Source: Actinoplanes sp. KI2 (GTDB lineage Bacteria > Actinomycetota > Actinomycetes > Mycobacteriales > Micromonosporaceae). From it: DNA of 64,000 nucleotides. Position numbers and translations under genes: made by a program. Shown here in pieces: positions 23,114 to 41,332 of the stretch. The notes under the pieces were generated by a model. That model saw nothing but the letters and a program-made list of their open reading frames with translations. It searched no databases and was not told where the DNA came from. The stretch covers positions 1-64,000 of the forward strand of contig NZ_JAOSZE010000027.1 in NCBI RefSeq assembly GCF_025630775.1. Direction: 5' to 3'. How positions within the stretch are numbered: position 1 is the stretch's first letter; the number at the start of each line of letters is the position of its first letter.

Positions 23114-25762
23114 CTACGGCAGCTCGTAGAGCGAGGGGCCGGAGTAGGCGCCGTTGGCACCGTTCATCACGACGTGGCCGGCGGCCGCGGGGATGGCTCG
23201 GGCGTTGGCGCCGCCGTAGCCGTTGGCGACGGTGAACATTCCCCACAGGACGTTCCACGGCTGCAGCTCGCCGTCCTCGTCGGGGAACAGCTCGACGTTG
23301 GGGCGGATCCGGCGCTGCACGATGTACGGACCGCCGAGCGCCGCCTCGAGCTTCTCCCGCCACTGCTCGTCGGTCAGCTGGTCGTCCCAGCCGAGCACCA
23401 CACCCTTGCCGGCGGAGAGCAGGGTCGGCTTGATGACCAGCTCCTGCCGGTGCGCGAGGGTGTAGTCGACCAGGTCGACGCGCTCGCCGTTCTCCAGGGT
23501 GACCGGGCCGGGGCGGGCCATCCGGGTCCACGGGATCAGCCGGTCCAGGCTGTCCAGCACGTCGGGCGGGAACACGCCGCGGTTGGCCTCGTCGGAGAGC
23601 ATCGCGAGGGCACCCTTGCTGCCGTACGCCGCGGTGTCCAGCGGCGTGAAGATCTTGACCTCGCCGCGGCCCGCGGCGTCGAGCACCGGCTCGGCGATGG
23701 CCATCGACTCGGGCGTCTCGATCAGGTTGGCGATCAGGAAGGTACGCACGACGATGTCGACCGGGCGGTCGCCGAGCCAGACCCGGCCGTCCCGGGCCAC
23801 CAACTGGCCCGCGTGGCACGGGTGGGCGTCCAGGCCCAGCTCGCGCCAGCGACCGCAGAGCAGCGTCATGAACGGCAGCTCCTCGTCGAACGTGCTGGGC
23901 CAGTCGGTCAGCGCCACCACCGGCCGGTCGCCGGGCTCGAACCCGCTCTCCACCAGGATGTTGTTGACCTGCTCGCGCAGCGTGTCCACGTAGCCGAGGC
24001 CGCGGCTGTCGGCGAACTCCCGCAACACCGGGTGCTCCAGCAGGCCGCGGACCATGTCGGCGTTGTCCATGCCGCCGATGGTGCTGCCCATGTTGAGCTC
24101 CAGCAGCTTGAAGACGCCGTTGTCGAGATACAGGTCGGCGCGGGCCTGGCGGGTCATCGGGCCGCTGCGGCACCGCATGATTGCCGACACCTGGGCCTCG
24201 GTCATGCCGACCGCGCGGGCGAACGCGGCGAAGTCGCCGCCGAACACCCGCTCCGGCAGCATGCTCAGCGCGGTGAGCAGGTTTTCCAGATCGGTGTACG
24301 CGCGCAGCCGCTCGGCGTGCCCGAGGAACAGCGGGCGGGGCAGGTATGTGCCCTTGTAGAACGCGTTGAGCTGGGCCGACTCGGGGAGCCGGCCGATCAG
24401 CTCGCGGGACTTGAGACCGTTGCCGGTCACCACGTCCAGGTATTGCTTGGTCAGTGTCTGGCCGTCCATGACGGTGCTCCTCGGAGGTTGCGGTTCGGCG
24501 GGGGTGGGCTGGGCGCTACCGGACGCGCTGGTGTCCGGCGGCGGGACGACCGCCTCGGGCGGCAGGGTGCGCTCGAGGGCCAGCAGCAGCACGCCGCCGA
24601 GGAAGGCGGCGATCGCGAGGACCAGCCAGGGCAGCCGCCCGTCGAGCGTGACCAGCGAGGTGAACAGGTAGGGCGCGATCGCGTACGCGAGAGACCAGGA
24701 GATCTGGTACGCGGCCAGGTAGCGCCCGCGCAGCTGCTTGGGGGCCGCCGACTGGGACAGGGCGCCGGCGGCCGCGCTGTGCACCAGCTCGGCGACCGTC
24801 GCCACGATGACGACGGTGATCAGCGCGGTGGTGAGCACCGCGACGTTGCTCGGGCGCAGTGTGCCGAGCACGATCTGCCCGAGGAAGGAGATCACGAACA
24901 GTGCCGCGCCGACCGCCGCGGCCCGGTTGCGGGTACGGGTGTAGCGGCGGGACAGCGCGGCGGCCGGCACGCCGAGGGTGGCGCACAGCGCGGTGTTGAC
25001 GATGAACGCCGAGCCGATCAGCCCCTGCGGCAGGTGCAGCCAGCCGATCGCGTAGACCGGCAGCAGCACGCTGAGGCTGGTGTAGCCGAGCGCGAGCAGC
25101 AGGTTGGCGAAGGTGAGGCCGAGGTAGGGGCGGTCCTTGATCAGCAGCCGGTAGCCGCCGCCCTTCTCGGCGCGGCCGCGGATGGCATGCCTGCCGGCCG
25201 GGGTGCGGGCGGCCAGCACCGCCGCGATCAGGAAGCTCGCGGCGTTGAGGTACGCGGCCAGCAGGTAGCCGGTGTCGCCGCGGGTGGCGATCAGCAGCGA
25301 GGCGATCAGGGTGCCGGCGCCCAGGCCCGCGTTGGCCAGGCTGCGGGTGAGGGCCTGCATCTTGTCCCGGTCGGTGCCGTCGACCAGCTCGGCCAGCCGG
25401 GCCTGCATGGTGGCCGGGAACGCCCGCGTGCTCAGCGCGGTGACCAGGGCCAGCAGCACGAACAGCGGCAGCCCGTGCGCCAGCGGGAAGCAGGCGAAGC
25501 CGATGGCCCGCACGACGTAGAGCCAGAGCTGCATGCGTTTGGCGCCGAAGCGGTCGACGGCCGCGCCGGCCACCGGCACGATCGCCATGCCGGCCAGCCC
25601 GGTGACGCTGAGCACCAGGCCGATGGTGGCCAGCGGCAGCTTGGTGACGTGCCAGAAGAACACCAGCGTGAAGGGGACGTACATGCCGGAGCCGAGAGCG
25701 TCGATGGCGATTCCGGTGACCAGGGCGCGCTTTCCGGGAAAGCTGGGGCGCTGCGATGACAT
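23114..25762 (-). CDS. MFS exporter fused to a circularly permuted ATP-grasp ligase domain
   Basis: A single uninterrupted frame of 882 aa joins two modules. Residues about 1-400 form a 12-helix MFS exporter (GIAIDALGSGMYVPFTLVFFW start). A Pro-rich linker (about 410-430) leads into a C-terminal ATP-grasp domain of about 450 aa related to glutathionylspermidine-synthase-like/circularly permuted ATP-grasp enzymes (LYLDNGVFKLLELNMGS; VIKPTLLSAGKGVVLG; PYIVQRRIRPNVELF). The ATG at 25762 is preceded by GGGAG. An internal ATG at 24469 with its own GAGGAG could produce the ligase domain separately. The ligase probably forms an amide bond in the pathway; the MFS part would export the product. Confidence 0.8.
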   Translation of the reverse strand: MSSQRPSFPGKRALVTGIAIDALGSGMYVPFTLVFFWHVTKLPLATIGLVLSVTGLAGMAIVPVAGAAVDRFGAKRMQLWLYVVRAIGFACFPLAHGLPLFVLLALVTALSTRAFPATMQARLAELVDGTDRDKMQALTRSLANAGLGAGTLIASLLIATRGDTGYLLAAYLNAASFLIAAVLAARTPAGRHAIRGRAEKGGGYRLLIKDRPYLGLTFANLLLALGYTSLSVLLPVYAIGWLHLPQGLIGSAFIVNTALCATLGVPAAALSRRYTRTRNRAAAVGAALFVISFLGQIVLGTLRPSNVAVLTTALITVVIVATVAELVHSAAAGALSQSAAPKQLRGRYLAAYQISWSLAYAIAPYLFTSLVTLDGRLPWLVLAIAAFLGGVLLLALERTLPPEAVVPPPDTSASGSAQPTPAEPQPPRSTVMDGQTLTKQYLDVVTGNGLKSRELIGRLPESAQLNAFYKGTYLPRPLFLGHAERLRAYTDLENLLTALSMLPERVFGGDFAAFARAVGMTEAQVSAIMRCRSGPMTRQARADLYLDNGVFKLLELNMGSTIGGMDNADMVRGLLEHPVLREFADSRGLGYVDTLREQVNNILVESGFEPGDRPVVALTDWPSTFDEELPFMTLLCGRWRELGLDAHPCHAGQLVARDGRVWLGDRPVDIVVRTFLIANLIETPESMAIAEPVLDAAGRGEVKIFTPLDTAAYGSKGALAMLSDEANRGVFPPDVLDSLDRLIPWTRMARPGPVTLENGERVDLVDYTLAHRQELVIKPTLLSAGKGVVLGWDDQLTDEQWREKLEAALGGPYIVQRRIRPNVELFPDEDGELQPWNVLWGMFTVANGYGGANARAIPAAAGHVVMNGANGAYSGPSLYELP
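24469..24487 (-). promoter_or_regulatory. Internal ribosome-binding site and ATG within the MFS-ATP-grasp frame
   Basis: On the minus strand CCGAGGAGCACCGTC precedes an in-frame ATG (MDGQTLTKQ) at 24469. GAGGAG with a 7-nt spacer is a strong site and stands at the exact module boundary. The 451-aa ATP-grasp domain could therefore be translated alone as well as in the fusion. A frameshift or sequencing error in the linker that hides an MFS stop is a second explanation. Confidence 0.55.
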
Positions 25763-25794
25763 GGGTCTCCCAGGACGGGGGTGGGCGAGGGGCT

Positions 25795-27039
25795 TCAGTT
25801 TGATTTGTCGATGTCGATCCGGATGTCGCCGATCAGACGCTCGCACCGGGCGACCGCCGCCTCGGTGTCGTCCGCCCGGACGGCGACGAAGCCGAGCCGG
25901 TCCCAGTTGTCGCGCAGCGGGCGGACCCGGTCGCCGGGCTTCGCGGTGATCCGGGCGGCGAGCACCCCGGGCCGCTCGGCCAGCTCCTCGGTGCCGCCGA
26001 CCGCGGTGACCGTGCCCGGCTCGCCGGTCAGGAAGCGCACGCAGGCGGCGCCCAGCGGCTGCGGATCGGCCGGTAACGGCGTGCCGGTGCCGGCCGCCCA
26101 GGCCACGGCGTGACCGGTCAGGTCGATGCCGTACGCCGCGCGGACCAGCTCGCCGATGAAGTCGCCGCCGCCGCGGTTGTGCGACTCGATCACCACGGGG
26201 CCGCGCCCGCTGAGCCGGATCTCGGTGTGGCTGGGCCCGTCGCTCAGGCCCATCACGGTCAGGAACTCGGTGACCGTGGCGACGATCGCGTCCCGGTCCG
26301 CCGCGGGCAGCCGGGCCGGCAGCGCGTGCCCCAGCTCGGCGAAGTGCCGCTCGTCGACGAGCTTCTCGGTGATCGTCACGACGGTGTGCCGGCCGGCGTG
26401 GCTGAAGCCCTCCACGCTGAACTCGGGCCCGTCGATGTACGCCTCCATCAGGAACTCGTCGACCAGGAACAGGCTGGTGCCGTGGTCGGTGTGCCGGCCG
26501 CGCAGCCGTTCGACGTGCTGCCAGGCGGCGTCCAGCCCGTCCTCGTCGTCGACCCGGTGCACCCCGTAGCCGGCCGTGGTGCCGGTCGGCTTGACGATGA
26601 ACGGGTAGCCGGCGAGCTTGCCGAACGTGTCCAGCGAGGCACGGTCGACGACCGGCTCGCTCTCCACCGTGAACGGGCAGCCGTGCGCGGCCAGGTGGCG
26701 GCGCATGGCGGCCTTGTCGCGCAGCAGCCGGGCCGCCTCGGGCGGGGTGCCGCGCAGGCCGAAGAGCCGGCCGAGCCGCGCCGCGTTCTCCAGGCCGCCC
26801 TCGGTGAGCGACAGCACCGCGTCCACGCCCCAGATCTGCCGGGCGGCCTCGGCCAGCGGGCGCACCGTCGGCCAGTGGGTGTAGTCGGCCATCAGCAGCA
26901 CGTCGGCCAGGCCGGTCTGCAGCGGGTTGACCCGTTCCGGGTGCTGGATCAGCACGATCCGCAGGCCGGAAGCCTTGGCCCGCTCCAGGTGGGTGTCGGT
27001 CGCGCCGATCAGCAGCAGGGTGCGGTCATCGGAGCTCAT
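25795..27039 (-). CDS. ATP-grasp ligase (carboxylate-amine ligase), copy 2
   Basis: The 414-aa protein has the BacD-like ATP-grasp layout: an N-terminal Rossmann-like half (LLLIGATDTHLERAKA), the ATP-binding Lys strand GYPFIVKPTGTTAGYGV, and the metal-binding GPSHTEIRLSGRGPVVIESHNRGGGDF. These enzymes activate a carboxylate as an acyl phosphate and couple it to an amine. The start lies 14 bp inside the previous ATP-grasp gene. It resembles the neighbouring 418-aa protein in length and motif order, so the two probably arose by duplication and act on successive couplings (inference). Confidence 0.88.
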   Translation of the reverse strand: MSSDDRTLLLIGATDTHLERAKASGLRIVLIQHPERVNPLQTGLADVLLMADYTHWPTVRPLAEAARQIWGVDAVLSLTEGGLENAARLGRLFGLRGTPPEAARLLRDKAAMRRHLAAHGCPFTVESEPVVDRASLDTFGKLAGYPFIVKPTGTTAGYGVHRVDDEDGLDAAWQHVERLRGRHTDHGTSLFLVDEFLMEAYIDGPEFSVEGFSHAGRHTVVTITEKLVDERHFAELGHALPARLPAADRDAIVATVTEFLTVMGLSDGPSHTEIRLSGRGPVVIESHNRGGGDFIGELVRAAYGIDLTGHAVAWAAGTGTPLPADPQPLGAACVRFLTGEPGTVTAVGGTEELAERPGVLAARITAKPGDRVRPLRDNWDRLGFVAVRADDTEAAVARCERLIGDIRIDIDKSN

Positions 27040-28282
27040 AGAAGCCGTCCCCGTCCAGGTAGCGCACGGTGTTGGTGTCCCGGGCCACCACGCTCTCGTC
27101 CTCGTGCAGCAGATAGATCCGCCCCGGGAAGGTCCAGTCGTCCACGGTGCGGTGGATCGGGTCGCCCGGGTTGACCCGGAACCAGGTGCCGTGGAAGCTC
27201 GGCAGCTGCCGGACCAGGTCCATCCGGGGGTAGCCGGCGAGCACCCCCTCGACCGGCGACAAGAGGTTGATGATCCGGGCGTGCCGCTCGATCCGGTAGT
27301 CCTCCTGCCGGCGGCGGGCGAACTCGGCCGGGTCGGTGGCGGCCAGCACGGTCCAGTCCAGCTGGCTCTCGCCGAGGCCGCCGCCGCTGAGCACGTGCAG
27401 GTCGGCGCCGCAGACCCGGGCGCCGGTCTCGATCAGCCGGGGGCCGTCCGGGGTGAGCTTGAGCTCGGTGTGCGCCGGTCCGTTGCGGATGCCGAGGGCA
27501 TCCAGGACCCGCAGCGTGTACGCGACGATCTGCTCCTGCTCGGGCCCGTGCCGGGGGAGCAGCTCCGACCCGACCGCCTGCCCGGCAACCCCGTTGGCGT
27601 CCAGGTGGTGCATCTTCCACATGTCGCAGACGTGGTGCTCGCCGTCGACGCCGACGGTGTTGACGATGTATTCGAAGCCGGCCAGGTAGTCCTGCGCCAG
27701 CACGGCCCGGTTGGCCTGGCCGAGGGCGCTGGTGGTGCCGATCAGCGTCTCGAACGCCTTGCGAACCTCGGTGACGTCGTCGCACAGGTGGACGCCGTCG
27801 TTGCCGGCGCTGCTCACCGGCTTGAGGACCACCGGGCGAGCGGTGTCGCCGTACCACTGCAGCAGGGTGTCCAGGTCGCCGGCCAGGATCTGGCCGGCGC
27901 CCGGCACCCCGGCCGCCTTGATCGTTTCGACCATCTCGAACTTGTCCCGGCGGCAGGCGCTCAGCGCCGTGCCGTTGGTCGGCAGGCCGAGCCGCTCGCC
28001 GAGCTCATCGGCCAGGATGACCGCGCGTTCGATGCCGGCGATCAGCGCGATCGGGGCGTGCGCGGCGACCGCGGCGGCGGTCGCCACCGGGTCGCCGTCG
28101 TGCACGATGTTCGCGCTGAAGTCGGCGGGCCGGTAGAAGGCCCGGTAGTTCGGCGGGATCTCCGGGGTGGTCTGCACGTGCACGCAGTCGTAGCCGCGGG
28201 CCCGGAACAGCGGGGCCAGGCAGCGGGCGCTGGCGTACGCGTCCACGACGACCACCGTGCCGGCGCCGGTTCGTGTGCTCAT
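27026..28282 (-). CDS. ATP-grasp ligase (carboxylate-amine ligase), copy 1
   Basis: The 418-aa ATP-grasp ligase begins MSTRTGAGTVVVVDAYASARCLAPLFRARGYDCV. It has the ATP-binding RPVVLKPVSSAGNDGVHLC and the magnesium site GPAHTELKLTPDGPRLIETGARVCGADL. The ATG at 28282 overlaps the upstream stop (ATGA), and the downstream ATP-grasp gene starts inside its end, so expression is tightly coupled. Its amino-acid or aryl-acid substrates cannot be inferred. Confidence 0.88.
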   Translation of the reverse strand: MSTRTGAGTVVVVDAYASARCLAPLFRARGYDCVHVQTTPEIPPNYRAFYRPADFSANIVHDGDPVATAAAVAAHAPIALIAGIERAVILADELGERLGLPTNGTALSACRRDKFEMVETIKAAGVPGAGQILAGDLDTLLQWYGDTARPVVLKPVSSAGNDGVHLCDDVTEVRKAFETLIGTTSALGQANRAVLAQDYLAGFEYIVNTVGVDGEHHVCDMWKMHHLDANGVAGQAVGSELLPRHGPEQEQIVAYTLRVLDALGIRNGPAHTELKLTPDGPRLIETGARVCGADLHVLSGGGLGESQLDWTVLAATDPAEFARRRQEDYRIERHARIINLLSPVEGVLAGYPRMDLVRQLPSFHGTWFRVNPGDPIHRTVDDWTFPGRIYLLHEDESVVARDTNTVRYLDGDGFYELR

Positions 28283-29385
28283 CGCTGGCCGCCGACCAGG
28301 GCGATCGGGTCGCCGTAGCGCATCAGCGGGCGGTAGTCGACGGCCCGGGTGTGCCGCATCATCCGCAGCACCGCGGTGGCACTCTCGGCGCCCGGGTCGA
28401 CCCGGATGATCGAGTGGTCCTGGCCGACCAGGTTGGCGGCGACGATGACGTGCCGCTCGATGTCGATCAGGTCGGCCTCGAGCAGCAGGTCGCGGGCCAG
28501 GGCCAGCTCCGCGTCGGTCTCGGCCAGCTCGGTGAACGGCGTCGGGAACTCCCGGACGACCCGGCGCATCGCCTTGCGGTGTGCCTTGTGCTCGGGCAGG
28601 GTGCGCCCGGTCAGCGCGGCCGGAACGGCGGGCGGCTGCATGGTGGGCCGGACCGTGCCGCCGTAGCACGGCGCCGACATGTCACCCGAGTGCATCATCG
28701 CCGCGGTGAAGCCGAGGACGAACACCGCGGCCTCGCGGAATGCGTCGCAGGCCGTCACCCGGTCGCCGTCGCGGACCGCGTCGAGCGCCCTGGTGACCGC
28801 GCCGGCCGCGGCCAGGTCCAGGATGAAGTGGTACTGGTGGATGGTGATCCACCGGGTCAGCTCGTCGGAGCCCGGCTTGTAGGGCACCAGGCCGGCCGGC
28901 CGATCGGCGGGCTCGGCGGCGGGGGCGGCGTCCGGCGGGTTGAGCCCGCGGAACAGGTGGATCGTCGCGAGCACCGCGGCCGCCTGGTCGGGCAGCGCGA
29001 CCCGGGAGTGCTGCAGGTCGGCGAGCGCGCGGGCGGCGATCGTGGTGATCTCGCTGACCAGGTAGGCGTCGTCGAGCGGCGCGGTGCGGATGCCGAAGTA
29101 GTCGTGGTTCGGCACGATCGGCTTCAGCGCCGCGGTGTCCATCGGGGCGACCATCGCCTCGGTGGCCAGCTGGTCGGCCTGCTCGACGGCGGCGTCGAAG
29201 GCGGCCGTGATGCCGTCACCGGCGCCCTCGGGCCGCATCAGCTCGGTGTGCAGCCGGGTCAGGGCGTCGATCGTGGCCTTCATCGCTCCCTCGACGGCCG
29301 CGCTCGGGCGGGTCGTGCAGCGCACCACGTTGTTCGCCGGGAAGACGACGATGGGAATCTCCGGTCGGCCGGGGGCCATGTCCAT
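28279..29385 (-). CDS. Unknown 368-aa helical cluster protein
   Basis: The protein (about 366-368 aa) is predicted mainly alpha-helical and cytoplasmic. It has a central ITIHQYHFILDLAAAGAVTRALD helix, a DAFREAAVFVLGFTAAMMHSGDMSAPCYGGTVRPTM segment and a C-terminal LLEADLIDIERHVIVAANLVGQDHSIIRV stretch with several His. The layout loosely recalls heme-dependent aromatic oxygenases (TDO/PrnB-like), but I cannot show this from sequence alone. Two ATGs, 29385 and 29379, compete; GAGG is spaced better for 29379. It lies between aldehyde dehydrogenase and ATP-grasp genes, so it is probably a dedicated pathway enzyme. Confidence 0.6.
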   Translation of the reverse strand: MDMAPGRPEIPIVVFPANNVVRCTTRPSAAVEGAMKATIDALTRLHTELMRPEGAGDGITAAFDAAVEQADQLATEAMVAPMDTAALKPIVPNHDYFGIRTAPLDDAYLVSEITTIAARALADLQHSRVALPDQAAAVLATIHLFRGLNPPDAAPAAEPADRPAGLVPYKPGSDELTRWITIHQYHFILDLAAAGAVTRALDAVRDGDRVTACDAFREAAVFVLGFTAAMMHSGDMSAPCYGGTVRPTMQPPAVPAALTGRTLPEHKAHRKAMRRVVREFPTPFTELAETDAELALARDLLLEADLIDIERHVIVAANLVGQDHSIIRVDPGAESATAVLRMMRHTRAVDYRPLMRYGDPIALVGGQR

Positions 29386-29415: not shown

Positions 29416-30753
29416 TCAGGCCGCGGCGAAGCCGCGTACCTCGCCGAGGAACTGGCCGAGGTATCCGTCGTGGGGGAGGTAGGGGTCCTTCCACCAGCCC
29501 GGGACCCGGCCCGCCAGGACGGTCCGGATGCCGGGGGTGCCGAGCGCGTCGGCGATCAGCGACGCGTTCTCGGTGAGCAGGGTGAGGGCAAGCGACCCGT
29601 CCAGCGGGGCGACACCGTCGGCCTCCCGCCACGGCGCCACCCAGACGCTGGGGAACGGGAGCTCGGTCGCCAGGCCCGGATGGTTGGCCGAGTCGGCACA
29701 GTGCACCGCCGGTCGCAGCGCCGCGGAGCCGTCGTCCAGCACCGGCAGCGGCTCGTCGAGGTAGGGCCGCATCATGTCCTCGGTGCCCTGCGCGACCCGG
29801 TCCAGCGCGGCCCGCAGGCCGTTGGCCTCGGCCGGTGGCCGGGCCGGCAGCGCCGCCCGATCGTCGGTGATCGGGTGGATCGGCAGGCCGGCCAGGCGCT
29901 GCGCCAGCGCGTCGGCGAGCGCCCGGTGGTCGCCGGAGGTGAGCACCGCGGTGGCGTTGGTGCAGCGCACGCCCCCGTCGGCCGCGATCTCGGCGACGAG
30001 GTGGTCGAGGGTGGCCTCGTCGAGCGGGCCGTCCAGCAGGATCTTGCTGCGGCCGGGGCCGCGGACCAGCACCCGGTCGTTGCCGCGCAGCCGGGCCACG
30101 GTCTGCTCGCCGCCGTAGACCAGGGCCAGGTCGACCGCGGCGACCAGGGCGTCGGCGGCGCTGTGCGGGCCCGGCAGGAAGCTGATCCAGGCCGGGTCGA
30201 GGCCGGCCGCCAGCAGCGCCCGGACCAGCCGCAGCGGGGTGATCGGGTCGCGGGTGCCGGGCCGCACCACGACCCGGTAGCCCATCGCGATCGCCTGCAG
30301 CCACGCCGCGTGGGTGGCCGGGTGGTTGCTCGGCGCCACCACGCCGAAGACCTCGCCGCGGCGCACCCAGCGGGCGGTGCGCCCGGCGCCGGCCGGCGAC
30401 TGCCTGGCGACCACCTCGCCGAGCACGGCGCAGATCTCCCGCATCCGGCTCAGCGTCTCGCGGGCCACCGAGACGGGTACGCCGGAGGCCAGGGCCTGCT
30501 GGTGGCAGTAGTCGTCGGGGCTCTGCCCGCCCAGCGTGGCCTCGGCGAACAGCCGCCCGGCCGCGGCCAGCACCGCCATCCGTTCCGCCTCGCCGACCGC
30601 CGGGGCGCGCCGCGCGGCCTGCGCGGTCAGCCGGGTGATCAGGGCGGGCGCCTCGTGCACGACGGCCAGCTCGGCGCCGTCCACACCGGACAGCACGCTG
30701 GTGTCGCGCGAGCCGCTCTCCTGGCCGCCGCGCAGCACCGGTATCGACAACAT
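29416..30753 (-). CDS. Aldehyde dehydrogenase/acyl reductase (EhpG/LuxC-like)
   Basis: The 445-aa protein belongs to the aldehyde dehydrogenase superfamily. The NAD-binding region reads VFGVVAPSNHPATH (136-148), and Cys264 in DGGVRCTNATAV is the expected catalytic thiol. The length and the PSNHP motif fit the acyl-reductase branch (LuxC or EhpG-like) better than typical 490-aa dehydrogenases. An EhpF-like adenylating enzyme occurs in the partner operon. In griseoluteic acid biosynthesis EhpF and EhpG together reduce an aromatic carboxylate to an aldehyde, and the same division of labour is likely here (inference). It is one base from the DUF362 stop. Confidence 0.82.
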   Translation of the reverse strand: MLSIPVLRGGQESGSRDTSVLSGVDGAELAVVHEAPALITRLTAQAARRAPAVGEAERMAVLAAAGRLFAEATLGGQSPDDYCHQQALASGVPVSVARETLSRMREICAVLGEVVARQSPAGAGRTARWVRRGEVFGVVAPSNHPATHAAWLQAIAMGYRVVVRPGTRDPITPLRLVRALLAAGLDPAWISFLPGPHSAADALVAAVDLALVYGGEQTVARLRGNDRVLVRGPGRSKILLDGPLDEATLDHLVAEIAADGGVRCTNATAVLTSGDHRALADALAQRLAGLPIHPITDDRAALPARPPAEANGLRAALDRVAQGTEDMMRPYLDEPLPVLDDGSAALRPAVHCADSANHPGLATELPFPSVWVAPWREADGVAPLDGSLALTLLTENASLIADALGTPGIRTVLAGRVPGWWKDPYLPHDGYLGQFLGEVRGFAAA

Positions 30754-30754
30754 C

Positions 30755-31960
30755 TCAGACCAACTCCTCGGCCGCCGGCCAGGCCGGTGCGGCGGTTTCC
30801 TGGGGTACGCGGAACTGGGTGCGCTCGGCGGCCGTGACGGGGTGGCCCATCGCGAACCGCAGGGCGGCCGTCTGAATCGCCCGGGGTGGGCAGCCCTCCA
30901 GGTAGACGCCGGCGTCGCGGTGCTCGTAGAGGGCGTTGCCGACCAGCACCACCGCGCCGCGCAGCTCGGGCAGCCGGCGCACCGGACCGGCCACGATGGT
31001 CAGCTCGCCGGGGTAGGCCAGCAGGTCGGCGCGCAGCAGGTGCAGGGCCGCGGCCAGCCAGCGGCGGCAGTCGGCGCAGGCGGTCTCGGCGTACAGGTGG
31101 ATGCCCGGGCGGGGCGGGGTGAGGTCGACCGGGGCGCGGTCGATGGTGAACGCGACATCGGCGATCGCGGCTCCGCGGACGTCGACGGCCGCGAGGTCAC
31201 CCGGACCGAGACCGCGCCGGTGCGCGTCGCGCAGGTAGGCCAGTTCGTCCGGCGCGACGCCGGCGACCGCGGCCATCGCGGTGTCCATGGCCACCGCGTT
31301 GCGCGACGCGCCGATCAGGCCGACTGCCCGGGAGCTGCCGGCCATCGGGTAGTTGCCCTCGATCACCGTCAGCGCGTCGCAGACCACCAGGTGCTGCGGG
31401 CGGAGCAGGTTGAGGTCGACGATGGACTCCTCGACGCCGGCCATGTGCACGATCCGGGTGGTGAAGCCGGGCAGCAGGCCGACCAGGTTCTTCATGGCGT
31501 TGGTGAGCACCACGCTGGAGTGCGTGCGCAGTTGGGGCGCGCCGATGAAGAAGTCGCACTCGGCGACGATGTCCGGCACCGCGATCGGCACCCGCAGCGA
31601 GGTCGCCTCGGGGATCTGCACCACCCGCAGCGGCCGGTCGTCGAAGCTGACCACCGTGGCGTAGCGGTGCACCTCGCTGCCGGCCAGGATCTCGGTCAGC
31701 ACCGCGGTGCGCTCGGCGACGAACACCTCGGCGCCCCGCGCGGCCGCCCGCCGGGCCACCGCGACCAGCAGCTCGGGGCTGGTGCGGAAGCCCGGTTTGC
31801 GCTGGAACATGTTGGGCTTGATCACCACCCGGTCGCCGCGGCCGACGTCCCGCAGCGGGTCACCGAGCAGGCCGAGGACCTGCTCGACGGCGGCGTCGAC
31901 GGCCGCGGCCGTCGACGCCGCGGCCCGGGTCAGGGCAACGATCTCGCGGCCGGTGGTCAT
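30755..31960 (-). CDS. DUF362 protein, candidate nickel-pincer-cofactor enzyme
   Basis: The 401-aa protein matches DUF362: VVIKPNMFQRK (45-55), the FIGAPQLRTHSSVVLTNAMKNLVG core (138-161) and CDALTVIEGNYPM (194-206). Three features stand out. First, His147, Lys157 and His172 form H-x9-K-x14-H, close to the H-x9-K-x15-H of lactate racemase LarA, where the Lys holds the nickel-pincer nucleotide and the His residues bind Ni or act in catalysis. Second, C295-x2-C298 and C357 (in EGCPPR) could bind a metal. Third, larB, larC and larE lie in the adjacent operon while larA is absent. The ATG at 31960 overlaps the stop of the cyclase gene (ATGA). The reaction is unknown; a racemase, dehydrogenase or hydride-transfer role is inferred. 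Confidence 0.75.
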   Translation of the reverse strand: MTTGREIVALTRAAASTAAAVDAAVEQVLGLLGDPLRDVGRGDRVVIKPNMFQRKPGFRTSPELLVAVARRAAARGAEVFVAERTAVLTEILAGSEVHRYATVVSFDDRPLRVVQIPEATSLRVPIAVPDIVAECDFFIGAPQLRTHSSVVLTNAMKNLVGLLPGFTTRIVHMAGVEESIVDLNLLRPQHLVVCDALTVIEGNYPMAGSSRAVGLIGASRNAVAMDTAMAAVAGVAPDELAYLRDAHRRGLGPGDLAAVDVRGAAIADVAFTIDRAPVDLTPPRPGIHLYAETACADCRRWLAAALHLLRADLLAYPGELTIVAGPVRRLPELRGAVVLVGNALYEHRDAGVYLEGCPPRAIQTAALRFAMGHPVTAAERTQFRVPQETAAPAWPAAEELV

Positions 31961-32637
31961 GACAGGTCGGGCCAGCCATCGAAGACGACCGCGCGCGAGG
32001 GCGCCGCCTCCACCCCGGCGACCTTGATGGGCAGCGCCATCAGCTGGACGACCGGGCTGGTGATCTGGTCGAGGTTCTGGATGTTCTCCAGGATCGGGAT
32101 GCCGGCCGCGAGCAGCCGCCGGTGCACCTGGCCGCTGCGGTCGTCGGGGCGTTCGGTGATGCAGTCCATACCGACCAGCCGGGCGCCGTTCTCCACCATC
32201 CAGTCGGCGGCGGAAAGGGTCAGGTATGGCGGGTTGTCCCAATAGTCGTCGCGGCCCAGATAACGGTTCGGGTGGTCGGTGCGAATGAGCAGACGGTCGC
32301 CCGGTCGCCAGGTTTCGTGGAGGGCCTTCTCCAGGTCTTCGCCGGTCACCGGGTCGAGGTCGCGCTTGTCGGAGAGGTCGGCCACGCAGGCCCGGCCCAC
32401 GAAGGTCTCCAGCGGCACCTCGTCGATCTTCTCCCGATCGGCGAAGAAATGGTAACCGGATTCCACGTGCGTGCCATTGTGCGGGAATATCTGAAGATCG
32501 GAGAAAGTGCGGCCGGTATTCGCCGGATCGGTCTGCGGGGTCATCGCCCGCCGGATGCCGAACTTCGGATACCAGGCGGCATTGTACGAGGGCATTCCCT
32601 CGTGCCAGCCCTGACTGATGTCGATGAGCTTCACCAT
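31957..32637 (-). CDS. Cyclase/kynurenine-formamidase-like metallohydrolase
   Basis: The 226-aa protein is in the cyclase family (KynB type). It carries FPHNGTHVESGYHF, the HxGTHxDxxxH metal motif with Glu in the Asp position, and WMVENGARLVGMDCIT and the LENIQNLDQI end motif. Family members hydrolyse formamides or lactones or dehydrate intermediates. It is the first gene of the left cluster operon, divergent from the LuxR-type regulator. An ATG at 32637 is followed by an in-frame GTG at 32634 with better spacing to GGAG. Confidence 0.85.
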   Translation of the reverse strand: MVKLIDISQGWHEGMPSYNAAWYPKFGIRRAMTPQTDPANTGRTFSDLQIFPHNGTHVESGYHFFADREKIDEVPLETFVGRACVADLSDKRDLDPVTGEDLEKALHETWRPGDRLLIRTDHPNRYLGRDDYWDNPPYLTLSAADWMVENGARLVGMDCITERPDDRSGQVHRRLLAAGIPILENIQNLDQITSPVVQLMALPIKVAGVEAAPSRAVVFDGWPDLS

Positions 32638-32813
32638 TTACTCCAAGGTTAAAACGTTAGTGTTTGGTCCGTTTTGGCGGTGTTCATGGGTCGAGTGTCG
32701 TTGTTACGACTTCGTACATTTCGATTGGCGGCCAGCGTCACACGTGCTGGTGGCGGCATGCCACAATGGCCACGGTTCGGGTTATCGCGTTGCCGAAAGG
32801 CGGGGGTTTACCG
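32638..32813. promoter_or_regulatory. Divergent intergenic region with first copy of a 43-bp repeat
   Basis: This AT-richer region separates the left operon from luxR. At 32772-32813 lies a copy of a 42/43-bp element (CGCGTTGCCGAAAGGCGGGG core, with a short GCC-GAAA-GGC hairpin). A second copy, about 86% identical and in the same orientation, lies at 41645-41687 ahead of the right operon's far end. In this copy its 3' part also supplies the likely ribosome site (GGCGGGGG) for the GTG at 32814. A regulator binding site or a remnant of a duplicated 5' gene end are both possible. Confidence 0.6.
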
Positions 32814-33662
32814 GTGGTATTCAGTAGGCACACGGGTGACGGCCACGTCGGGTCGTCGGCGATCGCAGCGCCCGCTGACCTGCGGAAAACCGTGGAGCCG
32901 GTGGTCCGACTCCATTTGACCAGTCTGATAGACGACATTGTCAAAATCGCGCAGGCGGCCCCCGAAAAGACATTGTCGACAATCTGTTCGCCGATCTCGT
33001 CGGCGGTCGGGATCGAATACGTGTACGGCCTGGAGTCCATCAACAAAAAGATCGCCCTCGCGGTCGACTCCTCCCGGGCCGAGATATTGACCGCCCAGCC
33101 CGGCGGTCCGCGGTCGCCCGCCGTGCTGGAGGCCGCGCTGAACACCGTGCGCGCCCGGCTGGCCGCCGGGGTCCGGATGCGCACGCTCTACCAGCACTCC
33201 ACCCGGTTCGACGAGCCGACGAAGAACTACGCGCGCGCCGTCATCGAGCTCGGCGTCGAACTGCGCACCCTCGACGAGTTCTTCGAGCGGCTGGTCATCG
33301 TCGACGCGGACACCGCGTTCCTGCCGGCCGCCGCCGACCGCACCACCGCCCTCCAGATCACCGAGCCGGCCCTGGTCCGCTTCCTGCGCGATCTGTTCGA
33401 CCGCACCTGGGAGCGGGCCGCGGCGTTCCCGTTCCGGCCCAACCGGGCCAGGGACGCGGCGCCCGAGATCATGCCGGAGATCCGGCAGGCGATCCGGCGG
33501 CTGCTCATCGAGGGCCACGCCGACAAGACGATCGGTCGCCGGCTGGGCATCAGCGAGCGGACCATCACGGCGCACGTGGCCAGCCTGCGGGAGGGTGTCG
33601 GGGCCACCAACCGCCTGCAGCTCGGCTACCGGCTGGCGCTCGAGGATCTGCGCACGAACTAG
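32814..33662 (+). CDS. LuxR-type cluster regulator with TrmB/PLD-like sensor domain
   Basis: The 282-aa protein (from GTG 32814) has a central domain of the TrmB/phospholipase-D-like type found in actinomycete LuxR regulators (RAEILTAQPGG, VRMRTLYQHS, ELRTLDEFFERLVIVD) and a C-terminal LuxR helix-turn-helix (LLIEGHADKTIGRRLGISERTITAHVASL). The frame is open further upstream to 32664, but GGCGGGGG 7 nt ahead supports 32814. It is the only regulator inside the cluster and sits between its two operons. Its stop codon overlaps the stop of the converging reductase gene (CTAG). It is probably the pathway-specific activator. Confidence 0.85.
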   Translation: MVFSRHTGDGHVGSSAIAAPADLRKTVEPVVRLHLTSLIDDIVKIAQAAPEKTLSTICSPISSAVGIEYVYGLESINKKIALAVDSSRAEILTAQPGGPRSPAVLEAALNTVRARLAAGVRMRTLYQHSTRFDEPTKNYARAVIELGVELRTLDEFFERLVIVDADTAFLPAAADRTTALQITEPALVRFLRDLFDRTWERAAAFPFRPNRARDAAPEIMPEIRQAIRRLLIEGHADKTIGRRLGISERTITAHVASLREGVGATNRLQLGYRLALEDLRTN

Positions 33663-34852
33663 CATCGGACACCCACGGCGTTGCGCAGCATCACCTGCGG
33701 GTCGGCGGCCCGGTCCGGGTCGAGCTCGGCGGCGTCGGCGATCAGCCGGCGGCCCTGCACCAGGTCGCGCGGGCGGTCCACGGCCAGGATCGCGTCCAGC
33801 CGGCTGCCGGTCAGCCACAGCGCCGCCCAGGACGGGTCGGCCGGGTCGCCGCGCAGCACCATCCGGTCGGCGCCGCGGTGGTGGCCGGCGTACTGGACCA
33901 TCCGGCCGAACTGCTCCGACCAGAAGTACGGCGGCGCGTCGTAGACCGCTTCCCGGCCGAGCAGGGTCGCGGCCGCCACCTCGGGCGCGTCCTTGGCCAG
34001 GGTCCAGTGCTCGGCCGGCAGCCGGCAGCCGAAGCGGCGGGACCACCAGGCCGCGCAGTCCCCGGCCGCGACCACCTCGGGCCGGCTGGTCCGCATCGCG
34101 CCGTCGACCAGCAGCCCGCGCTCGACCGCGAGGCCCGAGCCGGCCAGCCAGCCGACGTCGGGCCGTACCCCGACCGCGGCGATCACCACGTCGGCCGGCA
34201 TCTCGCCGCCGACCAGGGCGAGCCCGCCGTCCTCGACGGCCGCCACCCTGATGCCACAGCGCAGCTCGACGCCCGCCTCGGCATACCATCCGGTGGTCAG
34301 CGCTCCGGCCGCCGAGCCGAGTGCACCGGCCAGCGGCGCGTCGGCCGCCTCGACCACGGTCACCCGGCAGCCCCGGCCGGCGGCCACCGTCGCCACCTCG
34401 GCGCCGATGAAGCCGGCGCCGACGATCACCACCCGGGCGCCGGCGCGCAGCTCCGGCGCCAGCGCGCGGCAGTCGTCCAGGGTGCGCACCACGTGTTGCG
34501 CCCCGGGGCCGGGCAGGCGGATCGGGCTCGCGCCGGTGGCGACGGCCAGTCCGTCGAACGGCAGCGGGCCGCCGGTGGTGTGCAGCGTGCCGCCCGGCCG
34601 GTCGGCGTGCAGGGCCAGCGACTCGGCTCGCCGGCCAAGCAGGACCTCGCAGTCGAGCTGCGCCCAATCGGCCGGCAGCTCGACGGGGCCGGACTCACCG
34701 GCCAGCACGGCCTTGGAGAGCGGCGGCCGATCGTACGGCCGATGCGGCTCCGCCCCGACCAGCGTGAGCGTGCCCGCGAAGCCCTGGTTGCGCAGCTCCT
34801 GGACCGTGCGCAGGCCGGCCAGGCCGGCGCCGGCCACCACGATGTTCCGCAT
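33659..34852 (-). CDS. FAD-dependent ferredoxin-reductase-like oxidoreductase
   Basis: The 397-aa flavoprotein has two dinucleotide motifs, GAGLAGLRT (about 8-16, FAD) and VIVGAGFIGAEVA (about 149-161, NAD), plus the FAD-binding VVAAGDCAAW (about 275). This layout fits rhodocoxin/putidaredoxin reductases of the class I P450 electron chains. No ferredoxin or P450 is in the cluster, so it may reduce another partner such as the Fe-S enzyme LarE or act on the substrate itself (inference). It follows larC by 11 bp with AGAGG ahead of its ATG. Confidence 0.85.
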   Translation of the reverse strand: MRNIVVAGAGLAGLRTVQELRNQGFAGTLTLVGAEPHRPYDRPPLSKAVLAGESGPVELPADWAQLDCEVLLGRRAESLALHADRPGGTLHTTGGPLPFDGLAVATGASPIRLPGPGAQHVVRTLDDCRALAPELRAGARVVIVGAGFIGAEVATVAAGRGCRVTVVEAADAPLAGALGSAAGALTTGWYAEAGVELRCGIRVAAVEDGGLALVGGEMPADVVIAAVGVRPDVGWLAGSGLAVERGLLVDGAMRTSRPEVVAAGDCAAWWSRRFGCRLPAEHWTLAKDAPEVAAATLLGREAVYDAPPYFWSEQFGRMVQYAGHHRGADRMVLRGDPADPSWAALWLTGSRLDAILAVDRPRDLVQGRRLIADAAELDPDRAADPQVMLRNAVGVRC

Positions 34853-34863
34853 CGTCGATACCT

Positions 34864-36051
34864 CTACTCTCGTGCCAGGCCGTCGGCGGCGGCGATCGAC
34901 CGTGCCATGGCCACCTTCACCGGGGTGCCGAGGCGCTCGGCCGCGGCCACCACGTCCTCGTACTCGGGCTGGACGTTGACCACCCGCCGGCCGGACCGGG
35001 CGATCTTGACGCGGACCCCGGTGCCGTCCAGGTCGACCGTGCTGATCTCGCGGGCGAGCTCGCGCTTGGCGACCGGGTACTCGCGGGTGCCGATGGTCGA
35101 CGTCTCGGTGACGATCGTTTCCCGGACGGCCGGGACCAGCGACGCCGGGCACAGCGCGGAGAGGGTGTGCGCCGGACGGCCCTTCTTCATCAGGATCGGG
35201 GTGAGCCAGGCGTCGGACGCGCCGGCCTCCAGCAGCCGGGCCAGCACGTGCGGCCAGATCCGCGGGTCGAGATCGTCCACGTTGGCGTCGATCACCACGG
35301 CCGGCGACCCGGCGTCGGCACCGGGCAGCCCGGCGCCCAGCACGACGCGCACCACGTTGGCGATCGCCGGGTGATCGCGGGTGCCGGCGCCGACACCGAC
35401 ACCGCGCAGCTCCATCCGGGGCAGGTCGCCCCAGCCCGAGCAGAGGGACAGGATCAGCGCGGCCCCGGTCGGCGTGGTCATCTCCTGCCGGAAGCCGCCC
35501 GAGCCGGCCGGGGCGCCCTGATCGGCGAGCAGGCGCAGCACCGCGGGCGCCGGGACCGGCAGCTCGCCGTGTGCCGTGCGCACCCGGCCGGCGCCCAGTA
35601 CCAGTGGTGTCGCGGTGGCCGCGCCGATGGCCAGCTCGTGGTGGGCGGCGCAGACGCCGACCACGTCGGCGATGGCGTCCAGCGCGCCGACCTCGTGGAA
35701 GTGCACGTCGTCGACCGGCACCCCGTGCACGGCGGCCTCGGCCCGGGCCAGCCGGGTGAAGACCGCCAGCGCCCGATCGCGGACGGGATCGGGCAGGTCC
35801 GCCTCGACCAGCCGGGCGCGGATCGCCCGCCAGGTGCGGTGCGGCTGGTCGGCGACGGTGTCGACGTGCGCCTTGCGGGCGGACAGGCCGGCCCGCACCA
35901 CGGTGTCGACCCGGATGGTGACGCTGCCGGGGACGACCGCGTCGACCGCACGCTGCACCGCCGCCAGCGGCGCCCCGGCATCCAGCAGCGCGCCGAGCAG
36001 CATGTCGCCGGATGCGCCGGACGAACAGTCGAACCAGGCCATGGTGGTCAT
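34864..36051 (-). CDS. larC: LarC, nickel-pincer cofactor nickel insertase
   Basis: The 395-aa protein matches LarC throughout: MTTMAWFDCSSGASGDMLLGALLDAG start, HVDTVADQPHRTWRAI, HFHEVGALDAIADVVG, TPTGAALILSL and the C-terminal ETSTIGTREYPVAKREL and VNVQPEYEDVVAAAERLGTPVK. LarC is a CTP-dependent nickel insertase that makes the Ni-C bond of the nickel-pincer nucleotide. In Lactobacillus plantarum it is made by a frameshift from two frames; here it is one continuous gene. Its ATG overlaps the larB stop (ATGA). Confidence 0.95.
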   Translation of the reverse strand: MTTMAWFDCSSGASGDMLLGALLDAGAPLAAVQRAVDAVVPGSVTIRVDTVVRAGLSARKAHVDTVADQPHRTWRAIRARLVEADLPDPVRDRALAVFTRLARAEAAVHGVPVDDVHFHEVGALDAIADVVGVCAAHHELAIGAATATPLVLGAGRVRTAHGELPVPAPAVLRLLADQGAPAGSGGFRQEMTTPTGAALILSLCSGWGDLPRMELRGVGVGAGTRDHPAIANVVRVVLGAGLPGADAGSPAVVIDANVDDLDPRIWPHVLARLLEAGASDAWLTPILMKKGRPAHTLSALCPASLVPAVRETIVTETSTIGTREYPVAKRELAREISTVDLDGTGVRVKIARSGRRVVNVQPEYEDVVAAAERLGTPVKVAMARSIAAADGLARE

Positions 36052-36809
36052 GTGCGCGCCACCACCCGGCGGATCATCCGGGCCGCCGCCACGGCCGCGC
36101 CGAAGCCGTTGTCGATGTTGCACACGGTGACGCCGGGCCCGCACGAGTTGAGCATGGCGAGCAGCGCGGCCACGCCGCCGAAGCTGCTGCCGTAGCCGAC
36201 GCTGGTGGGCACCGCCAGTACCGGCGTGGCGACCAGGCCGGCGACCACGCTGGGCAGGGCGCCGTCCATGCCGGCCACCACGATCAGGCAGTCGGCGGCG
36301 TCCAGCTCGTCGCGCACGGCGAGGACCCGGTGGATGCCGGCCACCCCGACGTCGCGCACCATCGTGGTGTCGCAGCCGAACTCGGTGGCCACGAACGCGG
36401 CCTCCCGGGCGACCGGCTCGTCGGAGGTTCCGGCCGTGACCACCAGGACCCGGCCGGCCGGCTCGGCGGGGTCGCCGATCGCGACGCAGCGGGCGACCGG
36501 GTCGATCCGGCCGTCCGGGAAGGCGCGGGCCACGCTCTCCAGCGCCGCGTCGGGCAGCCGGGTGGCGACCGCGGAGCGCCGGCCGGGCTGCCGGGCGAGC
36601 GCGTCCAGCAGCGCCACCGTCTGCTCCGGGGTCTTGCCGGCCCCGAAGATCACCTCCGGGTCGCCGGTGCGCACGCCTCGGCCGGTGTCCAGGCGGGCGA
36701 AACCCAGATCCCGGGTCGCCGCGCCGGCCAGCGCGCCGAGCGCCCGGCCGGGGGTCAGCTCGCCGCCCGCGACCTGCCGCAGCAGGGCCAGGGTCTCGTC
36801 ACGATCCAT
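36048..36809 (-). CDS. larB: LarB, pyridinium-3,5-biscarboxylic acid mononucleotide synthase
   Basis: The 253-aa protein is LarB, a PurE-like enzyme that carboxylates and hydrolyses nicotinic acid adenine dinucleotide, the first step to the nickel-pincer cofactor. Diagnostic stretches are VVTAGTSDEPVAREAAFVA (124-142), DCLIVVAGMDGALPSVVAGLV (173-193) and TSVGYGSSFGGVAALLAMLNSC (202-223). Cys223 matches the position of the catalytic Cys221 of the L. plantarum enzyme. The gene starts 11 bp before the end of larE, so the two overlap. Confidence 0.95.
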   Translation of the reverse strand: MDRDETLALLRQVAGGELTPGRALGALAGAATRDLGFARLDTGRGVRTGDPEVIFGAGKTPEQTVALLDALARQPGRRSAVATRLPDAALESVARAFPDGRIDPVARCVAIGDPAEPAGRVLVVTAGTSDEPVAREAAFVATEFGCDTTMVRDVGVAGIHRVLAVRDELDAADCLIVVAGMDGALPSVVAGLVATPVLAVPTSVGYGSSFGGVAALLAMLNSCGPGVTVCNIDNGFGAAVAAARMIRRVVART

Positions 36810-37644
36810 CGGCCTGTGCCTTTCCGATCAGGTTGAGATAGCCGCTGCGGAAGCCCGCCGGGTCGACGTCGACCGCCTCGAAACCGGCCGCGCGCACCGC
36901 GTCCAGCGCCGCCGGGCAGGCCCGGACGGCGGCGACGACCGGCCCGTCGACCTGGATCAGGGCCTGCCGGCCGAGGTCGCGCACGCGCAGGTCGTACGAG
37001 TCGATGCCGGCCGACCGCAGGACGGCGCGCAGCGCGGTCTCGGCCGCGTCCACCCGGGCCAGTCGCTCCCGGGTGATCGGCACGCCGTACGCGACGCGGC
37101 TGGACAGGCACGGCGAGGCCGGCTTGTCCCAGAAGGTCAGTCCCCAGCCGCGGGCGGCCGCGCGCACCTGCTTCTTGGTCAGCCCCGCGTCGGCCAGCGG
37201 GGTGAGCGCGCCGAGCCGGGCCGCCGCCCGGATCCCGGGCCGGAACCGGTCGGCCAGGTCGTCGGCGTTGGTGCCGGTGGCGACGTGCGCCAGGCCGTGC
37301 CCGGTCGCGTGGTCGCGCAGCCGGGTGATCAGCTCGTCCTTGCAGAACCAGCACCGGGACCGGGAATTCTCCCGGTATCCGGCCGTGGCCAGCTCGTCGG
37401 TGTCCACGAAGACGTGCGGGGCGCCCAGCTCGGCGGCGATCCGGCGGACCGCCTCGCGCTCGTCGTTCGCCAGGCTCGGCGAGTTGCCGGTGGCGGCCAC
37501 GACCGCGGCCGGGCCGAGGGCACGGATCGCGGCCGCCACCAGCAGGGCGGAGTCGGCTCCGCCGGAGAAGGCGACCAGCACCGAGCCCAGACCGGCAAGC
37601 TGCCGATGCAGGGCGTCGAGGCGGTCCGCCAGCAGGTCGGTCAT
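36799..37644 (-). CDS. larE: LarE, ATP-dependent sulfur transferase of [4Fe-4S] type
   Basis: The 281-aa PP-loop protein (SGGADS, 27-32) adenylates the pincer carboxylates and inserts sulfur. It has three cysteines, C98 and C101 (SRCWFCKDEL) and C179 (SPCLSSR). The L. plantarum enzyme has only the last Cys, which is sacrificed once per turnover. Three-Cys LarE proteins are reported to bind a [4Fe-4S] cluster and act catalytically, so this one is likely of the latter kind. The ATG at 37644 overlaps the stop of the isochorismate synthase gene by 4 bp. Confidence 0.94.
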   Translation of the reverse strand: MTDLLADRLDALHRQLAGLGSVLVAFSGGADSALLVAAAIRALGPAAVVAATGNSPSLANDEREAVRRIAAELGAPHVFVDTDELATAGYRENSRSRCWFCKDELITRLRDHATGHGLAHVATGTNADDLADRFRPGIRAAARLGALTPLADAGLTKKQVRAAARGWGLTFWDKPASPCLSSRVAYGVPITRERLARVDAAETALRAVLRSAGIDSYDLRVRDLGRQALIQVDGPVVAAVRACPAALDAVRAAGFEAVDVDPAGFRSGYLNLIGKAQADGS

Positions 37645-39106: not shown

Positions 39107-40198
39107 TCAGTACACCCCCTCGACCGCGGGCGCGCTGCCGGCGGCGTTCAGCGGCTGCACGTCGGCGAGGCCGTCCTGCGGGTACCTGCCGGCCGGCGGG
39201 ATCCGCACGACGGCGTCGCGCTCCAAGGTCCAGGGCAGGAACAGGTCACGGGAGACCAGGCTGACCTTGACCTGGCCGCGCTCGCCGTACGCAATCTCGG
39301 TGTCGGGCTTCTCCGGGTCGACGACGCGGACCCGGCTGAACGGGTGGAACGGGACGAAGACGCAGCTCTCGTCGGCGGTCTCGCGGGGGCGCTGCGGCGC
39401 GATGCCCATCATGGTGTTGCCGTAGAGGCCGACCACGGCCGCGTCCGGGAACACCTCCTGCTCGAACGCGCGCAGCGTCTCCGGGCTCACGCTGGTGCCG
39501 GCCCAGATGATGCCGCGCACCTTGCGCTGCACCAGATCGAGCAGCCGCGGGTCGGCGGCCAGCGCCTCCAGCACCGGCGGCGTGGCGAACATGACCGACA
39601 CCGGCTGCGTGGTCAGGACGTCCTCGGCCTGGGCCAGGATGTGCTTGACGTAGCGGCGGACCTCGTCCGTGCGGCCCTGCTTCGCGATCGACTTGACCCA
39701 GCGCGGGTCGAAGTCGAGGTAGTGGCAGAACGTGCCGCGCAGGTGGGCCAGGATGCCGATCGACCGGCCGACGATGTGCGGCCCGCTCGGGCCGATGTGC
39801 AGCCAGTGACCGCCGCCCTCGCCCGGGAACCGGTGCTCGGCGAGCACGTCGCTGACCCAGTGCACGCCGTTGCGCCGCGACCGCGACTCCACGATGCGCT
39901 TGGGCCGGCCGGTGGTGCCGCCGCTGTCGAACACCTGGAAATCCCAGCCCTCGCGGGAGATCCCGGCCGGCACCAGGGCGTCGACGGAGAGGTCCCGCCA
40001 TTCCTCGCCGACGTCCGGGAACAGGTCGAGGTCGTCCCAGGTGCGCACGTCGGTGAGCGGGTTGAAGTCGAGTTCGGCGGCGCGCTTCACCCAGTACGGC
40101 GACCCGGTCGACGGCGAGAAGTGCCACTGCATGGCGGCGGCCAGGAACTCGTCGGGTGGCAGGTCGGCGGTGAACGGCTCGGCGGTGGAGTCCAGCAT
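39107..40198 (-). CDS. EhpF-like adenylate-forming enzyme (PaaK-related)
   Basis: The 363-aa protein is a short adenylate-forming enzyme with the P-loop-like A3 motif DSGGTTGRPKRI at 91-102, later SVMFATPPVLEAL, RGIIWAGTSVSPETL, and VGLYGNTMMG. It lacks a complete C-terminal subdomain Lys motif. Phenazine-pathway EhpF has a similar make-up and activates phenazine dicarboxylic acid for reduction by EhpG. I infer that it activates an aromatic carboxylate. The start ATG 40198 follows GGAGGC-like bases (ATTCCGGAGGCAATCC). Confidence 0.82.
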   Translation of the reverse strand: MLDSTAEPFTADLPPDEFLAAAMQWHFSPSTGSPYWVKRAAELDFNPLTDVRTWDDLDLFPDVGEEWRDLSVDALVPAGISREGWDFQVFDSGGTTGRPKRIVESRSRRNGVHWVSDVLAEHRFPGEGGGHWLHIGPSGPHIVGRSIGILAHLRGTFCHYLDFDPRWVKSIAKQGRTDEVRRYVKHILAQAEDVLTTQPVSVMFATPPVLEALAADPRLLDLVQRKVRGIIWAGTSVSPETLRAFEQEVFPDAAVVGLYGNTMMGIAPQRPRETADESCVFVPFHPFSRVRVVDPEKPDTEIAYGERGQVKVSLVSRDLFLPWTLERDAVVRIPPAGRYPQDGLADVQPLNAAGSAPAVEGVY

Positions 40199-40236
40199 GG
40201 ATTGCCTCCGGAATCGGATCAGGCGGTGGTTTTGGG

Positions 40237-41295: not shown

Positions 41296-41332
41296 TGCTG
41301 CACCTTCCGTTGGTGGGCGGCCGGCGTTCGCG

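Follow-up and report, generated by a model that had tools for sequence, protein, structure and literature searches.

When larB, larC and larE occur together and no larA lies beside them, which protein uses the nickel-pincer cofactor (NPN)? The available part of PMC11796402 reports larB, larC and larE without larA in about 15% of the genomes analysed there and infers unknown NPN-binding proteins, and the accessible text of PMC8305020 suggests the possible presence of an NPN enzyme in Haloferax volcanii. The same question is raised by the window analysed here, a stretch of 64,000 nucleotides from Actinoplanes sp. KI2, taken at its full length, in which larBCE lie near the gene of a DUF362 protein. 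Genomic context and distant kinship to LarA suggest that this protein is probably an NPN-dependent hydride-transfer enzyme outside the LarA family, with an isochorismate-derived substrate. The DUF362 cluster forms a concrete candidate for the non-LarA NPN proteins. It also offers carriers whose genomes yielded no LarA that could use NPN, together with matched LarBCE proteins.

Gene content of the window

Judged from their profile matches, the neighbours of the DUF362 gene form a biosynthetic cluster (Table 1). The aldehyde dehydrogenase-family protein is a possible acyl reductase partner of the AMP-dependent ligase. The transporter and ATP-grasp-like halves of the reading frame at 23114-25768 match separate places in the related locus L041, about 1.3 kb apart.

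Table 1. Features of the window, in order of position
Feature	Position	Strand	Basis or remark
HisC-type aminotransferase	22049..23113	-	Profile match
MFS transporter, then in-frame region with weak circularly permuted ATP-grasp match	23114..25768	-	ATP-grasp match below cut-off
ATP-grasp L-amino acid ligase	25795..27039	-	LAL_C2
ATP-grasp ligase	27026..28318	-	Uncharacterised NF005543 over cut-off; dapdiamide A synthase model below cut-off
368-aa protein	28279..29385	-	No Pfam match; 59% identical in L041
Aldehyde dehydrogenase-family protein	29416..30753	-	PF00171
DUF362 protein, candidate NPN enzyme, 401 aa	30755..31960	-	Pfam match and profile alignment to LarA
C-terminal domain of the DUF362 protein, residues 281-388, C295-x2-C298 and C357-P-P; possible Fe-S domain	30797..31120	-	Comparison with relatives
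His172 codon, aligned with LarA His200 (presumed nickel ligand)	31445..31447	-	Profile alignment
Lys157 codon, aligned with LarA Lys184 (presumed cofactor tether)	31490..31492	-	Profile alignment
His147 codon, aligned with LarA catalytic His174	31520..31522	-	Profile alignment
Putative cyclase (metal hydrolase family)	31957..32637	-	PF04199 (Pfam)
LuxR-type regulator between two minus-strand gene groups	32664..33662	+	PF00196
FAD-dependent ferredoxin reductase-like protein, downstream of larC	33659..34927	-	PF07992 and PF14759; also beside larC in Streptomyces sp. DvalAA-43 (L064)
LarC, nickel insertion (cyclometallase)	34864..36051	-	TIGR00299 and NF052512 over cut-off
LarB, pyridinium carboxylase	36048..36809	-	NF033503 over cut-off
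LarE, sulfur transferase; Cys 93, 96, 174, 238	36799..37629	-	TIGR00268 over cut-off
Isochorismate synthase	37641..39104	-	TIGR00543, 298.8 bits (cut-off 224.75)
AMP-dependent ligase	39107..40282	-	PF00501
DAHP synthase	40237..41376	-	TIGR01361 over cut-off

The conserved Lys and His residues

At E <= 1, the sole Pfam match of the DUF362 protein was PF04015 (8.9e-34, 117.7 bits, cut-off 24). The protein contains 3 Lys and 9 His overall, and its Cys residues are at positions 135, 194, 295, 298 and 357. A preliminary description of the window had drawn attention to the pattern H147-x9-K157-x14-H172 in this protein, encoded near larBCE, and the spacings read from the sequence confirmed it. The resemblance to LarA, described there as near, is indeed close, as lactate racemase chain 6c1w has H-x9-K-x15-H, with the second gap one residue off. 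Some other DUF362 proteins match the LarA spacing exactly, for example L098 (GHELTGFGGALKNVGMGLGCRSAKQMMH; compare HYFAGFGGGRKSILPGIASFEAIQSNH of LarA L069). By chance, the exact spacing appeared in 26 of 20000 shuffles of the DUF362 protein, and in 73 of 20000 if a second gap of x13-15 was accepted.

An alignment of 58 DUF362 proteins, from which L007 and L058 (duplicates) and L008 (partial) had been removed, had Lys157 and His172 in all 58 sequences and His147 in 55, the position being occupied by Asn in the remaining three (L022, L025 and L027). In a 36-sequence subset, K48, H147, K157, N158 and G161 were invariant. Because of this conservation across the 58 aligned proteins, the motif is conserved by descent, a property of the DUF362 family that is not special to the window protein. 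The 10.06-Mb genome from which the window comes contains a single DUF362 match. In the family to which the genome of L044 belongs, 14 of 29 genomes gave a match, of which the known one alone is close (59%) and the others reach only 28-32%. Viral contigs were also searched for DUF362 proteins that might deepen the alignment, and no relative was found among them.

Kinship with LarA

In LarA, we take Lys184 to be the residue that tethers the cofactor and His200 to be the one that binds nickel. A profile-profile alignment of 36 DUF362 proteins with 12 LarAs (probability 86.5, E 4.6e-6 for this one comparison, 140 columns) placed H147, K157 and H172 on the catalytic His, the tether Lys and the nickel His of LarA, respectively. 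The three residues that the preliminary description had likened to those of LarA are thus their positional equivalents, by position only. The catalytic His residues of LarA carry the numbers 108 and 174 in the available text of PMC12611868. No equivalent of His108 was seen in the profile-profile alignment, where by our reading it falls in a gap. A His98-Arg99 pair is invariant in five subfamily sequences, and it is a guess that it may replace LarA His108.

Kinship was also detectable in one direct profile scan. LarA L069 scored 25.5 bits against the DUF362 profile, above the cut-off of 24, and the other of the two LarAs scanned, L055, gave no match. In the reverse direction, L098 was the only one of seven DUF362 proteins scanned that touched Lar_N (E 0.099, below cut-off), and the window protein had no Pfam match to Lar_N or LarA_C at E <= 1. 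A PDB sequence search with the window protein alone returned nothing relevant. When the 36-sequence profile was used, the best 60 of 310 PDB matches were made via the ferredoxin-like part, and LarA was not among them.

A structure model built from the single sequence was set aside (AlphaFold, pLDDT 39). The model built from five sequences has a mean pLDDT of 55, with residues 141-276 below 50. When 1000 chains were realigned with VIA to this weak model (pLDDT 55), the first seven entries were all of the LarA family, with Z values of 7.3 to 6.4, all below 8, over 155-172 residues; the first unrelated chain followed at Z 6.2 over 106 residues. This LarA-first ordering, unlike the Z values alone, is supportive of kinship, and of a LarA-like fold in the N-terminal half, in so far as the weak model can be relied on. 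A Foldseek search with the same model gave no match at E <= 0.001, and LarA was absent from its best 50 rows.

The relationship as such has been noted before. As the available part of PMC11770544 has it, DUF362 and DUF2088/LarA are both members of Pfam clan CL0471, and ten archaeal DUF362 sequences served there as an outgroup sharing the clan with DUF2088. The proposal of an unrecognised nickel-pincer family is therefore too strong as far as kinship is concerned. Its other half, NPN use by DUF362 proteins, was found in no paper; apart from the clan remark, we found nothing in the open-licence PMC literature that links DUF362 to NPN.

Recurrent linkage of larBCE with DUF362 genes

The strongest evidence for NPN use is genomic. 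A search of plasmids gave one close homologue of the window protein, in Streptomyces sp. NBC_01450, and, with both proteins as queries, a search through 84,980 species genomes added at least four more loci. Among the matches listed, larB, larC and larE occur in the same cluster or contig as the DUF362 gene in five of the six subfamily loci, the window included. They lie within the DUF362 cluster in the window, on plasmid NZ_CP109481.1, in Streptomyces sp. DvalAA-43 and in Kitasatospora sp. MAA4; in Catenulispora rubra they share a contig with the cluster, at a distance of about 15 kb and separated from it by an NRPS. The exception is Tengunoibacter tsumagoiensis, which has two LarC matches on another contig and two LarAs in its genome. 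LarC was present in all six records searched and in the window genome.

The linkage proposed earlier thus recurs in other genomes, among them those of Streptomyces sp. DvalAA-43 and Kitasatospora sp. MAA4. Whole-genome searches found no LarA in either at E <= 0.001, and each has one LarC and one DUF362 protein, the LarC gene being located in the DUF362 cluster. Plasmid NZ_CP109481.1 has no LarA on the plasmid sequence itself, and Catenulispora rubra has a second LarC beside a LarA, on another contig. In a distant locus on an 18-kb contig (G059:C597), two DUF362 genes flank larC, larB and larE, one product being 24-30% identical to the window protein, depending on the method. Neither of these flanking proteins has a ferredoxin or GCPP Cys pattern, and no LarA was found in this genome, which is 82% complete. 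At L038:12049-17718, the two DUF362 proteins encoded on either side of larC, larB and larE, neither with ferredoxin or GCPP Cys, have N-termini that look twin-arginine-like by eye, with Pfam TAT_signal at only E 0.43 for one of the two.

The description of the cluster as lacking LarA holds for the window, in which larBCE were confirmed and no LarA is present, and does not extend to the genome. A Lar_N search of the window genome gave one match, a LarA on contig C177. C177 ends with a part of LarC, about 9 kb from this LarA, and contig C159 starts with another LarC part, with LarB and LarE beside it; we infer that the two contig ends join. Since LarC parts, LarB and LarE are thus found on C177 and C159 as well, the window larBCE are a second set. 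The LarA on C177 is what could make this set a spare one that serves it and lies beside the DUF362 gene by chance. We regard this as very unlikely, as that LarA would have its own LarC, LarB and LarE if the contigs join, and as the linkage with DUF362 is repeated in five of the six loci among the matches listed and in LarA-free genomes.

The gene adjoining DUF362 in all six subfamily loci, window included and again among the matches listed, encodes the PF04199 cyclase. For this reason linkage alone cannot separate the DUF362 protein from another NPN host in the cluster, such as the cyclase or the 368-aa protein. That either of these carries the cofactor is nevertheless improbable: neither matches a LarA model in Pfam or NCBIfam, the 18-kb contig with larBCE and DUF362 genes has no cyclase match, and the 368-aa protein was seen in just one of the other five loci, within the sequence retrieved for each, among the matches listed. 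It can also be imagined that LarB, LarE and LarC make a pyridine dithiocarboxylate block or a nickel chelator that becomes part of a natural product, which would suit the ATP-grasp ligases of the cluster and the NRPS in Catenulispora. Such a pathway would require no LarA homologue, yet a DUF362 gene is present in every such locus, and LarC, the nickel inserter, is kept in five of the six among the matches listed, leaving this explanation with hardly any probability. The DUF362 protein remains the preferred NPN host.

Comparison of the LarB, LarC and LarE proteins gave only partial backing to a joint inheritance of larBCE and DUF362, because LarB and LarC fall in two groups (window, L064 and L040 versus L042 and L066) and the window LarE is nearer to the LarA-linked Catenulispora LarE (L065, 53.5%) than to the DUF362-linked one (L066, 48.3%).

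Co-occurrence of LarC and DUF362 across genomes

The wider association was examined in a sample of 396 genomes of the window's phylum, with genome lists compiled by hand and counts that ignore phylogeny. Dropped before counting were 35 genomes with a best DUF362 match weaker than E 1e-20, probably cross-matches because 30 of these 35 have a strong LarA, and 30 genomes with a best Lar_N match weaker than 1e-15, 25 of which have DUF362. LarC was present in 127 of 139 DUF362-positive and 121 of 257 DUF362-negative genomes, uncorrected for phylogeny. The difference was also seen among LarA-negative genomes, where LarC occurred in 60 of 69 with DUF362 versus 36 of 163 without it, likewise uncorrected. 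For LarA-positive genomes of the same set the count was 152 of 164. A DUF362-positive, LarC-bearing genome was found in 30 of the 32 families and 75 of the 80 genera with strong DUF362 matches; overall, 155 of 237 genera have LarC.

Some genomes have LarC and neither protein. In the 396-genome set, 36 contain LarC without a strong LarA or a strong DUF362 match, so other NPN users may exist. Four of 14 control genomes had LarC without LarA. Synechococcus elongatus and Haloferax volcanii, both controls, have LarC and DUF362 and no LarA, and the controls Corynebacterium glutamicum and Methanocaldococcus jannaschii have LarC with neither LarA nor DUF362.

Conversely, LarC is absent from 12 of the 139 DUF362-positive genomes, including all eight sampled from two families (f19 and f30). 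Loss of Lys157 was expected in LarC-negative genomes and was not found: all three motif residues persist in 11 of 11 DUF362 proteins, which come from 9 of the 12 genomes (G261, G326 and G549 left out). The motif residues must therefore be usable without NPN, or NPN is obtained otherwise. Being family-wide and kept in these genomes, the motif is not diagnostic by itself, and since the residues alone cannot prove NPN use, the claim for the family as a whole stays weak. Their retention, together with the control genome of Bacteroides ihuae, which has DUF362 and no LarC, would suit a protein of LarA fold in which Lys157 and the two His bind a ligand other than NPN, be it another nucleotide, a metal or the carbonyl of a substrate, and the larBCE genes have a different role. 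For the window protein we consider this unlikely in view of the repeated larBCE linkage, including the two LarA-free genomes that have a single LarC, encoded within the DUF362 cluster.

The C-terminal Cys domain

The additional Cys residues pointed out in the preliminary description as a potential metal site (C295, C298 and C357) are present, and they are not an isolated extra, as the C-terminal Cys of most sampled DUF362 proteins form ferredoxin or GCPP patterns. Among 58 proteins, 40 have a ferredoxin-like CxxCxxC, 14, with the window protein among them, are of the GCPP type, and 4 have neither. The GCPP pattern has four Cys (CxxC...GxC...GCPP) in L010, L012, L013, L028 and others. The third of these, at position 343, is Ala in the window protein, and Ala also in L040, L041 and L042; it is still Cys in L043 and L044.

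The structure model is confident over residues 281-380 (pLDDT about 75-92), and weak structural matches of the C-terminal part include the PSST subunit of complex I (Z 5.6). Nothing significant was obtained when a profile of the domain was compared with the PDB, and no Fe-S family of Pfam matched the window protein at E <= 1; the possible Fe-S role is therefore based on the Cys patterns of relatives and the weak fold match. By analogy with these relatives, it is possible that the domain binds a cluster, a role that may be degenerate in the window protein.

Proposed function

In the mechanism that we favour, the LarB, LarE and LarC of the cluster would make NPN, which would be attached to Lys157, with its nickel held by His172 and His147 acting as acid/base over the cofactor. 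A carbon in the ring of a chorismate- or isochorismate-derived intermediate, supplied by the DAHP synthase and isochorismate synthase of the cluster, would give up or receive a hydride, and the enzyme would work alongside the PF04199 hydrolase, the neighbour of DUF362 in all six loci. The net reaction could, as in LarA, be an epimerisation; alternatively, it could be a redox step whose electrons drain into the Cys-rich C-terminal domain. We lean towards isomerisation or epimerisation for the window protein, as the third of the four Cys is missing. The substrate may vary, since in the Catenulispora cluster an anthranilate/aminodeoxychorismate synthase-like enzyme (L043:4511-5866) takes the place of the isochorismate synthase; it scored best against models of anthranilate synthase, without reaching their cut-offs.

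If this assignment is true, natural-product biosynthesis would make use of NPN chemistry, and a large family without assigned function would gain a cofactor. A bolder proposal is that DUF362 as a whole is a second NPN family, accounting for the non-LarA NPN proteins expected in the roughly 15% of genomes with larBCE and no larA, and that its Cys domains link hydride transfer by NPN to carriers of single electrons. Cys domains of the ferredoxin-like or GCPP type occur in 54 of the 58 sampled proteins; we nonetheless hold this extension to be doubtful. If true, it would add redox catalysis to the role of NPN in racemases.

Comparison with known systems

The window protein shares with other DUF362 proteins (PF04015) a full match over the cut-off and the residues Lys157, His172 and His147. 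It differs from them by keeping three of the four GCPP-type Cys and by its location in a biosynthetic cluster. The Npun_F2552 family (NF052623) matches residues 7-277 of the window protein at 3.4e-21, but with only 75.9 bits the protein is far under the cut-off of 500 of that model.

With LarA/DUF2088 (PF09861), the protein has in common H-x9-K-x14/15-H at aligned positions, a weak but detectable profile similarity and linked larBCE. Unlike LarA, it has no His108 equivalent that could be seen, and its C-terminal domain is instead rich in Cys. The available part of PMC12611868 describes LarA-like enzymes that have a single catalytic His, and one of them, 9q3j, is the best VIA match of the model. 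As far as that text goes, the window protein resembles these enzymes in having one catalytic His; they replace His174, whereas the DUF362 protein keeps the equivalent of His174 and it is the equivalent of His108 that is not seen.
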